Of a stretch of 56,960 nucleotides of DNA, positions 48,187-54,683 are shown piece by piece. Where the stretch lies: assembly GCA_023511725.1 (NCBI GenBank), contig JAIMAY010000017.1, positions 1 through 56,960 of the forward strand, read 5' to 3'. The position numbers were made by a program, and so were the translations under genes. This DNA comes from Alicyclobacillus sp. (GTDB taxonomy: Bacteria; Bacillota; Bacilli; Alicyclobacillales; Alicyclobacillaceae). Every line of letters starts with the position of its first letter. Position 1 is the first letter of the stretch. Under the pieces are notes generated by a model. It searched no databases and was not told the origin of the DNA. It saw only the letters and a list, made by a program, of their open reading frames with translations.

Positions 48187-49152
48187 TCAGCCGGCCGTGC
48201 GCTGCCGTGCCAGCCTGCGCGGCCGCCAGACCCGCAGATACTCCGCGGTGAAGTAACTGCCGAGGACGAACAGCGCTGCCAACACCTGCGCCGCGATACC
48301 CTCTCGATTGGGGAACAGGGCGAACCATACGCCCATCCAGTCCGGAATGGAGAAGCCCAGGTCCGTCGTCGGAAGCCATCCGGCCTGCTGCATCTCCTGC
48401 ACTTCCTCCCCCACCATGACAACCAGGACCAATCCGAGAAGGATCCCGGTGAACACCAGCATCTTTTTGTATGGCAGCCTGTTGTGGGCGGCGAACGTCA
48501 GGACGGCCACCAGCGCGGTCAGCGCCAGGCCGGCCAGCGTTCCGAGCAGGACTGTCTGCGATCCGACCTGATACCGCAGGTTTTGCAGGAATAGGACCAC
48601 TTCGAAGCCTTCGCGGTAAATGGCCGAGAACCCCAACAACACGAGGCCGCGCCAGGCCAGGGATACGCCGGTCTGCGCCTCTTGCATCAGTTCCTGTTTG
48701 CGCCGGTTGTGGTGTGCAATCCAGCCGGTCCAATAGATGCGGTGGAAGAACCAATTCATCACGAGCAGCAGCACCAACACGGCGAGCAGACCCGTCGCTG
48801 CCTGGATGTCCAGCTCCGGCGCCTGGACACTGGACAAGAGGCCCACCACCGCAAACCACGTCACGATGGTGACGCCGAACGCAAGGCCGGAACCGGCGGC
48901 GATAGGTTTCCAGAAGCTGTTGCCGGTGCGAACCAATCCTGCGATGATGGCGGACAACACGAGGATGGCCTCCAGCCCCTCGCGGAACACCAAGATACCC
49001 GTGTCGAGGATGGCGGCGGATCGAGAAAGGTGGGATTCGGCAGGGTCCGGCGCCCCTGAGGCGGTGAGTCCCTGCCACACCAACACCGCGACCACCACGG
49101 CGGCCGCAGACCACAGCACAACGGAGCGCACGCGCCGAATGCGATTCTGCAA
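48187..49152 (-). CDS. FTR1-family iron permease (EfeU-like)
   Basis: 321 residues, about eight membrane segments. Two REGxE motifs, ILVFREGLEAILVLSAI (near 55) and SAIYREGFEVVLFLQNL (near 175), are the iron-binding signatures of FTR1/EfeU permeases. An extra N-terminal hydrophobic segment of about 30 residues precedes the usual start. TTG start at 49152 supported by GGGAGGT. EfeO and EfeB partners are absent nearby, so it may work alone or with a ferroxidase elsewhere. A palindromic site and a good promoter lie upstream. Confidence 0.9.
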   Translation of the reverse strand: MQNRIRRVRSVVLWSAAAVVVAVLVWQGLTASGAPDPAESHLSRSAAILDTGILVFREGLEAILVLSAIIAGLVRTGNSFWKPIAAGSGLAFGVTIVTWFAVVGLLSSVQAPELDIQAATGLLAVLVLLLVMNWFFHRIYWTGWIAHHNRRKQELMQEAQTGVSLAWRGLVLLGFSAIYREGFEVVLFLQNLRYQVGSQTVLLGTLAGLALTALVAVLTFAAHNRLPYKKMLVFTGILLGLVLVVMVGEEVQEMQQAGWLPTTDLGFSIPDWMGVWFALFPNREGIAAQVLAALFVLGSYFTAEYLRVWRPRRLARQRTAG

Positions 49153-52063: not shown

Positions 52064-53005
52064 CTAGGAAGATGGGGATTGCGGCATCCAGGCGTGCAGC
52101 ACCTGTCCGTCGGTGCGAATCAGCAGCCAGCCATGCGGCGCGTGACGGCGCAGAACGGCTTCAGCCCCCTCGGCGCCGAGCAGGATGCAGCACTTCGCCA
52201 GCACTTCCAAGGCCACCAGGTCCGGGCCAATCACGGTGCAGGAACTGACGTCCGTACGCGCCGGGCGGCCGGTGCGCGGGTCGACGATGTGGTGCGCGTC
52301 GCCGGTTTCGGTGGGCCACCGGCGGCGGTAGATGCCGCTGGTGGCGACGGCGAGGGACCGGACTTCAAGCACCGCCACATCCTGGTCCGGATGGGCGGGG
52401 TCCGTCACGCCGATCCGCCACGGCCCCGCTTCAGCCTCGCCGGCGCACACCATGTCGCCGCCGGCGTCTACGATGAAGTGCTGAAAACCCAGTCGACGCA
52501 GACAGCGCGCGGCACATTCCACAATCCAGCCCTTGCCAATTCCACCGAGGTCCAGCGCGTATCCCGGGACCACGCGGAGGTACCTGTCGTCGTCACTGAC
52601 CTCCACGCCGGCCTGTATCGCGGGCTCGTATCGCCGTTCGCTGGTGGATGCGGCTGCTGCGTCCTGTGCCTTCAGCTCGCGCCAGGAACGGTCGTAGCCC
52701 GCCTCGGCCAGGTGACGTCCCAAGGCGGGATGGAAGAGTCCGCCCGTATCCCGCCAAGCCTGTAGTGCACGGCGGACGATGGCAGCCGTTTGTGGCGAGA
52801 CCTCGACCCATTCCCCGGCGCGGGCGTTGGCGCGGCTGATCTCACTGTCGGCGCGAAAGCGCGACCAGCGCTGTTCCCATGTGGCCACGAGGTGGCGAAC
52901 ATGATGGGCTGCGGATTGGAGAACGGCTTGATCCACAGCGTCCTCGCTGCGGATCACCATCCGCACGCGCGTGCCGAGTGCTTCGAAGCTATCCTCAAAG
53001 CGCAT
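52064..53005 (-). CDS. apbE: ApbE-family FAD:protein FMN transferase
   Basis: 313-residue ApbE domain: FEALGTRVRM at the N-terminus, FHPALG, GYALDLGGIGKGWIVECAA, FIVDAGGDMVCAG and HHIVDPRTGRPA. It moves FMN from FAD to a Thr or Ser of target proteins. There is no signal peptide or lipobox, so it should be cytosolic. In the last metal-site motif the usual Asp and Thr (AD-x3-T) appear as Glu and Lys (LEVLAK), a variant seen, as far as I recall, in an ApbE branch of Gram-positives. Its ATG overlaps the stop of the Gly/Ser-rich gene (TGATG), so the two are translated together. Confidence 0.93.
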   Translation of the reverse strand: MRFEDSFEALGTRVRMVIRSEDAVDQAVLQSAAHHVRHLVATWEQRWSRFRADSEISRANARAGEWVEVSPQTAAIVRRALQAWRDTGGLFHPALGRHLAEAGYDRSWRELKAQDAAAASTSERRYEPAIQAGVEVSDDDRYLRVVPGYALDLGGIGKGWIVECAARCLRRLGFQHFIVDAGGDMVCAGEAEAGPWRIGVTDPAHPDQDVAVLEVRSLAVATSGIYRRRWPTETGDAHHIVDPRTGRPARTDVSSCTVIGPDLVALEVLAKCCILLGAEGAEAVLRRHAPHGWLLIRTDGQVLHAWMPQSPSS

Positions 53006-53469
53006 CAGGACGCTCCCGTACGACCGTCGACGGGACCGCCGCCGAATCCGCCGAAGCCTGCGCCGGTGCCGGACCCGAAGCTCGAGGAGCCGGATCCGAA
53101 GTCCGATGCGCCGGACCCGAAGCCCGAGGAACCCGCGTCGCTGCCGCCACCGCCCGCGTAGGATCCGGCACCATCCCAGCCGTAGCTTCCACCCTGATCC
53201 CAGCCGCCGTCAGCCTCCGCGGCTCCGCTGGCATCGCTTCCGGACGCCGCGCTGCCCACCGCGGCTGTCCCGGTGGATCCCGTTTGGGCCGTGGTACCGC
53301 CTGACAGATGCAGGGCGAAGGCGGCAAACGCCGCGAACGCACCGGTCGCCGAGATCCAGGCGAGACGGCTGATCCATGACGCGCGCGAGCGGCGCTGCCT
53401 TGTATCCCGTTCCGTCGCTGACGGACGCTGACGTTGTTCGTTCGCGCCGTGAACACGATGCTCTTCCAT
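53005..53469 (-). CDS. Gly/Ser-rich single-pass membrane protein, ApbE partner
   Basis: 154 residues, no known family. A charged N-terminus rich in Arg, Glu and Gln (1-31) is followed by one hydrophobic helix (about 32-56), then a Gly/Ser/Ala/Asp-rich tail with three exact-length seven-residue repeats (SSGFGSG, ASDFGSG, SSSFGSG; 114-134). The last seven residues are DGRTGAS, fitting the ApbE flavinylation motif D-x-x-[ST]-G-A-[ST]. Basic N-terminus predicts N-in, C-out. The ATG at 53469 is nine bases after GGAGG; a TTG at 53478 would add three residues. The overlap with apbE makes it a likely flavinylated carrier. Confidence 0.7.
   Translation of the reverse strand: MEEHRVHGANEQRQRPSATERDTRQRRSRASWISRLAWISATGAFAAFAAFALHLSGGTTAQTGSTGTAAVGSAASGSDASGAAEADGGWDQGGSYGWDGAGSYAGGGGSDAGSSGFGSGASDFGSGSSSFGSGTGAGFGGFGGGPVDGRTGAS
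53069..53131. repeat. Three tandem 21-base repeats
   Basis: Units at 53069-53089, 53090-53110 and 53111-53131, each beginning CCGGA-CCGAAG on the plus strand. They encode the heptad repeats of the Gly/Ser-rich protein on the minus strand, so copy number may vary between strains. Confidence 0.75.
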
Positions 53470-53648
53470 CTCAATCAACCTCCTGCGGGTGCCCCGTCCC
53501 AGGCACCAACTGAAGCATAGCCGGGCGTGCTTGAAATGGGATTGAATCGGTGCGAGGATAGGGCATACTGTGGATCAGTGGGTACGCATTTTTCGTAGAT
53601 TCACTAGCGGCGTGTGAGACTCGGCCGCATCGTCACGGGGGGAGCGCC

Positions 53649-54683
53649 GTGGACAATGTGACGCATGCACTCTGGGGATTGGGGATCTACGGCGGATGGG
53701 CCGCGCTGTCCCACGCGAACCTGCATACGGCACTGGCCGCCGGCGTGTGCACAGCCGCTGTGCTCGGATCCGAGGCGCCGGACGCCGACGTCGTAATCCA
53801 GGTCGTGGCCGGTCCGATTGCCTATCTGCGGCAGCATCGCGCCATCTCGCACAGCATCCCCATGTGGTTTGTCTGGCCACTAGTGATTGCGGCTCTCCTG
53901 AGCCTGTGGCAACCGGGACACTTTGGGTTGTTCTTTTTTGTCGCCTTGGTCGGCGTCCTGATCCACGTAGGGCTGGACGTTCTGACCACGTACGGGACGC
54001 AGGCCCTGTGGCCCCTCTCCGGGCGGCGCTGGGCGTACGACGCGTTGTTCATCGTCGACATCGTGTACCTGATCTGCGGGGCGCTCGGCATCATCCTGGC
54101 GCTGTGGCGGTGGACCGTACCGCAGGCGGCGATGGTGTTCGGCGGGATCGCCGTGGTGTATACGTTGGTGCGGCTTTTGCAGTCGCGAGTGCTGTGGCAC
54201 AGGGTGCGCAGGCAATTTCCTGAGCCTTGGCGGCTGAGCGTCATCCCGGGCCCGCTGCCGTGGTGGTGGAGCTACGTGGCGCAGCGTCCGGAAGCCATCT
54301 CGGCAGGACGGGTCAGGCCAGACGGCACAGCAGAAGCCCAGATCCAGTGGGTGAAGCCGCAGGCGGACTCGGAAGCTGTGCGATTTGCGCTGTCGTCGAC
54401 GCGCGTGGGGAAGGTGTTTCGCTGGTTTGCGCGCCATCTACTCGTGCGGGAGAAGGTGGAGGGAGACACCGTCCGCGTGGTGATGGCGGACGTGACCTAC
54501 CGGTACAACCGGTTGTTGCCATTCACGGCGAGCGTGACCCTCAAGCGTCACGGTGACCGCTTTGAAACGGTGGCCGAATCGGTTCGTGCGCAGGATGTGG
54601 ATATGGGCGCCCTGCTTGAGGATGCGGTCAATCCCGATGACGGTCCGCATCCGTCGGCGGAGTTGGTCGATCCCGGTCGCTGA
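53649..54683 (+). CDS. YfhP/YdjM-like membrane-bound metal-dependent hydrolase
   Basis: 344 residues. The N-terminal part has about five membrane segments and the histidine/aspartate motifs NVTHALWGLGIYGG, GSEAPDADVV, QHRAISHSIPMW and HVGLDVLTTYGTQALWPLS, which define the YdjM/YfhP (LexA-binding-type, DUF457) membrane hydrolase family. The C-terminal 150 residues are soluble and unlike other known domains. GTG start at 53649 after GGGGGAG. The substrate is unknown. The 3' end overlaps the convergent XRE gene by 56 bases. Confidence 0.88.
   Translation: MDNVTHALWGLGIYGGWAALSHANLHTALAAGVCTAAVLGSEAPDADVVIQVVAGPIAYLRQHRAISHSIPMWFVWPLVIAALLSLWQPGHFGLFFFVALVGVLIHVGLDVLTTYGTQALWPLSGRRWAYDALFIVDIVYLICGALGIILALWRWTVPQAAMVFGGIAVVYTLVRLLQSRVLWHRVRRQFPEPWRLSVIPGPLPWWWSYVAQRPEAISAGRVRPDGTAEAQIQWVKPQADSEAVRFALSSTRVGKVFRWFARHLLVREKVEGDTVRVVMADVTYRYNRLLPFTASVTLKRHGDRFETVAESVRAQDVDMGALLEDAVNPDDGPHPSAELVDPGR

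Follow-up and report, generated by a model that had tools for sequence, protein, structure and literature searches.

A membrane-anchored stalk with a putative flavin-acceptor serine at its last residue, coupled to a signal-less ApbE

Introduction

In Listeria, the surface flavin carrier PplA bears folded FMN-binding domains and is paired with FmnB, an enzyme of the ApbE type. FmnB works outside the cell (PMC9973259). ApbE transfers FMN to the last Ser or Thr of the motif D-x-x-[ST]-G-A-[ST], of which the seven residues suffice, and canonical ApbE prefers Thr as the acceptor (PMC12052999). When the motif of known targets is mutated, D to A has a minor effect, and modification falls to about 50% with G to A or A to V (PMC12052999). 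The engineered flavin-tag is a bare terminal copy of these seven residues that ApbE flavinylates (Tong et al. 2021, as reviewed in PMC12052999), and it performs best at either end of a protein (PMC12052999).

Several other arrangements have been described. MsrQ-like clusters combine apbE with a haem protein of the PF01794 type, from which electrons are thought to be passed to an extracytosolic flavin, and typically include a gene for an FMN-binding domain (Meheust et al. 2021, PMC8238504). This 2021 survey dropped genes without signal peptides and noted that some orphan apbE genes still had unidentified substrates; others of its substrates are DUF2271 and DUF3570, domains of ~135 and ~420 aa with a conserved [ST]GA[ST] (PMC8238504). 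FMN_red substrates, mostly from Firmicutes, have their sites on an unstructured C-terminal extension, which in the FMN_red and Flavodoxin_4 substrates serves a folded flavodoxin-like domain (PMC11334425).

Here we describe a pair of genes in the window, by which we mean the whole 56,960-nucleotide stretch of Alicyclobacillus sp. DNA analysed (contig JAIMAY010000017.1, assembly GCA_023511725.1), and the relatives of that pair in other bacteria. One gene encodes a small membrane protein, here called the tail protein, and the other an ApbE. How does this locus compare? As in PplA/FmnB, a surface flavin carrier would be joined to an ApbE-type enzyme; the tail is anchored by a transmembrane helix, has no folded flavin domain, and its ApbE is predicted to be cytosolic. 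Like DUF2271 and DUF3570, it would be a substrate other than FMN_bind traced through orphan apbE genes, and it lacks the flavodoxin-like domain of the FMN_red and Flavodoxin_4 substrates. The MsrQ-like clusters have the same combination of apbE with a PF01794-type haem protein, but the tail locus has no FMN_bind, its ApbE is signal-less, and in the window no haem gene is adjacent. The flavin-tag is artificial, whereas the tail appears natural, with its own group of ApbEs and a relaxed D and G. The tail system works like the MsrQ-like cluster and the flavin-tag, and is a member of neither as these are defined.

Because tag and enzyme recur together in dozens of distant bacteria, we propose that they probably represent an overlooked class, a flavin electron carrier with its flavin on the very last amino acid of a membrane stalk. 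If this is true, ApbE genes missed by a survey that required signal peptides gain a substrate, the extracytosolic flavoproteins known so far gain a carrier that has no folded flavin domain, and attachment of the flavin before export is implied. When open papers, which exclude most subscription journals and preprints, were searched for a C-terminal-tail ApbE target or an ApbE/ferric reductase system, no account of this class emerged.

The tail protein and its coupled apbE

The tail protein gene occupies positions 53469..53005 of the minus strand, stop codon included, and encodes 154 aa. An AGGAGG Shine-Dalgarno sequence at 53479-53484, 9 nt upstream, favours ATG 53469 as the start over TTG 53478 of the ORF list. 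The product has a basic, Arg-rich N-terminus, a single hydrophobic helix (residues ~37-55, 53305..53361), for which the Arg-rich N side predicts an N-in/C-out orientation, and a Gly/Ser stalk whose translation contains the three heptads SGFGSGA, SDFGSGS and SSFGSGT (53065..53127). It ends in DGRTGAS (residues 148-154, 53008..53028), an exact match to D-x-x-[ST]-G-A-[ST]. A Pfam search of the protein found no family at E ≤ 0.001, and hence no FMN_bind domain and none of DUF2271, DUF3570, Flavodoxin_4 or FMN_red; in NCBIfam all matches lay far below the cut-off. A gene for a YdjM-family membrane protein (53649-54683, plus strand) is divergent from the tail gene and starts ~170 bp upstream of it.

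The stop codon TGA (53007-53005) overlaps the apbE start ATG (53005-53003), and the resulting TGATG (53003..53007, minus strand) couples both genes. The single helix, the three heptads, the DGRTGAS terminus and this overlap, all described in an earlier reading made from the sequence only, are borne out on the 154-aa minus-strand frame.

The apbE gene (53005..52064, minus strand) encodes a 313-aa FAD:protein FMN transferase, which matches PF02424 with E 2e-59 and 201.7 bits against a cut-off of 25.6. Its solved relatives are 4xdt, 1vrm and 7esa, the family profile matches ApbE structures down to 9e-45, and an AF2 model of the enzyme has a pLDDT of 86.7. The N-terminus reads MRFEDSFEALGT, and both a signal peptide and a hydrophobic segment are absent from it.

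Recurrence of the pair

Relatives were sought in 41 genomes of the family to which the window belongs, together with their flanks, and then in scans of named genomes and of the class. One genus of the family after another yielded the tail/apbE pair, and in Bacillota, Chloroflexota and Actinomycetota signal-less ApbEs are preceded by small membrane proteins of N-in/C-out orientation whose stalks have diverged. A comparison of the last residues of homologues next to apbE had been proposed in the sequence-only reading; it shows pairs recurring across several phyla. A bare acceptor-like C-terminus on a flexible stalk, coupled to ApbE, is real and is the best reading of the tail.

Within the family the tails end in TPDFRSGAS, SDVQSHAS, PDIRTGGS, PNVRSSAS, PDFGSAAS, GLFGSGAS, LNGFSGAS, SLFGSSAS, PDIITRGS, TPDVRSGGS or PGFTSRAS. 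Other Bacilli have MRTHAS (Cohnella), TRSRHS (Brevibacillus) and NRTRRS (Anoxybacillus), the last two being relaxed at the -2 position as well. Tails of Chloroflexota end in GRSRGS, ARSRAS or RTGSSR, and those of Actinomycetota in TTGASRALR, TTGASHALP or TTSGS; in some partners, such as the one ending in TTGASRALR, the motif lies 1-5 residues before the end. The stalks vary widely in length and sequence, and the final residues vary much less. Pfam and NCBIfam gave no convincing family for the homologous tail proteins, the only significant domain being PG_binding_1 in four members.

Two stalks have features of their own. The stalk of one tail protein (L132) includes an extended run of (GSSSS)n, through which strains may differ in how far the tip reaches. 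Another, from Anaerolineae (L034), has at ~138-172 a foldable-looking segment, VLFTLDIVQWTESQTGEPMAVVQDENGTLWYVLGTD, ahead of its RSRGS end; the stalks of tail proteins are thus not all simple.

Conservation of the C-terminus

Is the terminal motif more than a chance product of a Gly/Ser-rich sequence? In the window alone the case is weak evidence, because [ST]x[AG]S fits ~5% of the 4-mers of its stalk. We therefore turn to the family. Partners of ApbE were chosen by position, a transmembrane helix and limits on length and composition only, and removal of ApbEs more than 70% identical left 61. The expectation was taken from 4-mers of each partner's own stalk, and is thereby matched in composition. 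An exact [ST]x[AG]S terminus was observed in 31 of the 61 non-redundant partners and expected in 1.16, and chance is rejected at the level of the family by this own-stalk null. A terminal Ser was seen in 40 of 61 (9.6 expected) and is the most conserved position of the family. The nominal P for the terminal motif, 1e-39, is too small since the partners are related, and sets of close relatives were therefore examined separately for codon changes. Over the last seven codons, the ratios of synonymous to nonsynonymous changes in these sets were 4:0, 4:0, 4:0 and 5:0; change among close relatives that is mostly synonymous supports selection at the level of the protein on the C-terminus of the tail.

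The same codons bear on another explanation, in which the motif merely follows from translational coupling: the end of the tail gene would also provide the Shine-Dalgarno sequence of apbE, and a tail rich in Gly, Ser and Ala would yield [ST]GAS by chance. In the window GGA GCG (Gly-Ala) lies 7 nt before the apbE ATG and could serve apbE, and the frequency of fitting 4-mers in the stalk points the same way. Across relatives, however, the codons differ without a shared Shine-Dalgarno sequence: the last Ser is encoded by TCG, TCC, TCT, TCA or AGT, and the motif is kept where the apbE start lies several or tens of bases off. Since the codons of the last Ser vary and changes are mostly synonymous, a Shine-Dalgarno constraint is not the cause, and with the excess over expectation also strongly contradicting it we regard this explanation as very improbable and prefer selection on the protein itself.

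What is selected departs from the canonical motif. The sequence-only reading had staked its proposal on the D and G being kept among homologues, and they vary, in register: D stands at -7 in 13/61 partners, G at -3 in 13/61, with H, R, S or A replacing it, and A or G at -2 in 35/61. This variation weakens strict membership of the motif. It does not refute flavinylation, because in known targets D to A has only its minor effect and about half of the modification remains after G to A or A to V. Since FMN goes on the last Ser or Thr of the motif, we predict the terminal residue, Ser154 (53010-53008, minus strand), to be the acceptor, in agreement with the position given in PMC12052999. The residue at this position is almost always Ser in the tail family, unlike the canonical preference for Thr. 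Of the original motif claim, what stands is that DGRTGAS is acceptor-like and coupled to ApbE; its emphasis shifts to the last Ser, with the D and G unconserved.

A distinct group of ApbEs

In a tree of 128 ApbE sequences, 35 rows form a canonical clade (SH-aLRT 99) and 93 rows lie outside it. None of the tail-linked members falls inside the clade, and all 61 fall outside. The groups differ at two positions, which in the window enzyme form the signature E267...K271 (52193..52207, minus strand). Glu replaces the catalytic Asp (Asp285 in Vibrio) in 81 of the 93 non-canonical rows, and the Asp is found in 32 of the 35 canonical ones; four residues further on, Lys occupies 84/93 non-canonical rows and Thr 31/35 canonical rows. 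With numbering matched through spacings of 16 and 28 residues, the triad residues Ser223 and His239 are invariant, and the third member is Glu267 in the non-canonical group in place of Asp. FMN transferase activity of the Glu/Lys type is accordingly predicted rather than guaranteed, given this change from Asp to Glu.

Might the C-terminus instead serve ApbE, or the haem protein described below, as a peptide for docking or regulation, itself unflavinylated, with the true flavin target elsewhere? The departures from the motif at D, G and sometimes A would suit such a role, as would the Glu in place of the catalytic Asp. The conserved terminal residue, on the other hand, is the very position that ApbE modifies, and candidate targets elsewhere are lacking. 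The haem protein was rejected as the target, its alignment having no invariant [ST]GA[ST]. An FMN_bind partner elsewhere in the genome of the window is likewise ruled out: that genome encodes two ApbEs and not a single FMN_bind domain. It is one of 16 genomes among the 41 of the family in which there is no FMN_bind and the ApbEs are all of the high-scoring type; FMN_bind genes elsewhere mostly adjoin low-scoring ApbEs of the canonical type. We consider a docking peptide unlikely, and take the terminal Ser as the probable site of modification.

Three ApbEs of the non-canonical group (L151-L153, in genomes G024, G020 and G008) have neither a tail nor a haem gene nearby. The one in G020 (L020/L152) carries in a variable loop a long low-complexity repeat, AEASAEAS...SPSPSP, apparently a hypervariable insert.

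Topology of the tail

On which side of the membrane does the tail lie, and where would it be modified? K+R averages 5.05 before the helix and 0.97 after it, the bias having the N-in sense in 54/60 tail proteins, and in four members the PG_binding_1 domain, which binds peptidoglycan, is on the C side. Because of this charge bias and of the wall-binding domains, the tail is predicted to lie outside the cell, N-in/C-out.

For extracytosolic targets that have been characterised, the modifying ApbE is typically an exported one (PMC12052999), a precedent for a tail flavinylated outside by an ApbE exported without a classical signal; alternatively, the tail could stay in the cytosol. A hydrophobic N-terminus is nevertheless found in 0 of the 61 tail-linked ApbEs against 27 of the 35 canonical ones, which extends to the whole group the absence of a signal peptide pointed out earlier for the window enzyme, and the charge bias and the peptidoglycan-binding domains both argue against a cytosolic tail. 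Either version strikes us as distinctly improbable, and modification in the cytosol followed by export remains our preferred reading.

The haem protein

In most loci apbE is followed by a third gene, for a membrane protein of 175-270 aa. Four His are invariant in its alignment (H87, H101, H163 and H176 in locus L002) and have the spacing of bis-His haem ligands. At E ≤ 0.1, 15 of 21 of these proteins match Ferric_reduct of Pfam, the best at 2e-9, and a profile search of the PDB returned only the flavocytochrome set of 8qt6, 8qta and relatives, 8qta being named as the pneumococcal NADPH oxidase in the fold search. An AF2 model (pLDDT 93) gave best Foldseek matches that include NOX and STEAP at high probability, with E 0.04 or worse. 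Since these E-values are weak, the prediction of a ferric reductase/NOX-like fold draws chiefly on the four His and on Pfam.

Of the 61 tail-type loci, 59 contain the haem protein, and of the 35 canonical loci none does; 21 of the loci supplied the profile. The window locus, with no PF01794-type haem gene adjoining, is one of the two exceptions. The tail had been proposed as a minimal electron carrier at the cell surface; this role is plausible because a haem protein of the ferric reductase type is almost always adjacent in relatives, although it is absent beside the window copy.

A second pair in the genome of the window, on its contig C54 (G000, L002/L160), has a tail protein of 200 aa with one transmembrane helix, a PG_binding_1 domain (E 4e-18) and the end TTTSASRW. 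After its apbE comes a membrane protein with conserved His residues, the only haem-profile match of that genome.

A proposed flavin-tipped stalk

From the coupling of the genes, the topology, the motif shared across phyla, the distinct ApbE group and the haem linkage in relatives, we infer how a flavin might be attached, when, along what path electrons would travel and to what acceptor. The cytosolic ApbE encoded by the neighbouring gene would have the tail protein as its dedicated substrate and would move FMN from FAD onto the hydroxyl of the C-terminal Ser154. Why place the motif at the very end? The C-terminus is the last part of the protein to leave the cytosol, so a terminal position makes sense: modification could take place there before export, and an unfolded chain would stay translocatable. 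The N-in/C-out anchor would then hold the flavin outside on its flexible Gly/Ser stalk, where it might act as a swinging arm from the membrane haem protein to acceptors in or beyond the cell wall. That ApbE flavinylates Ser154 of the tail, and that the flavin-tipped stalk shuttles electrons outside the cell, seems to us likely. The broader proposal, to which we would give roughly even chances, is that cytosolic ApbEs with Ser-His-Glu and Lys write FMN on the stalk-end Ser before export in three phyla, linking haem proteins outward without any flavin-binding fold.

A gene for an iron permease of the FTR1 family (48187-49152, minus strand) shares the strand of apbE and lies ~3 kb past it, with plus-strand genes between, and is a possible hint at iron.
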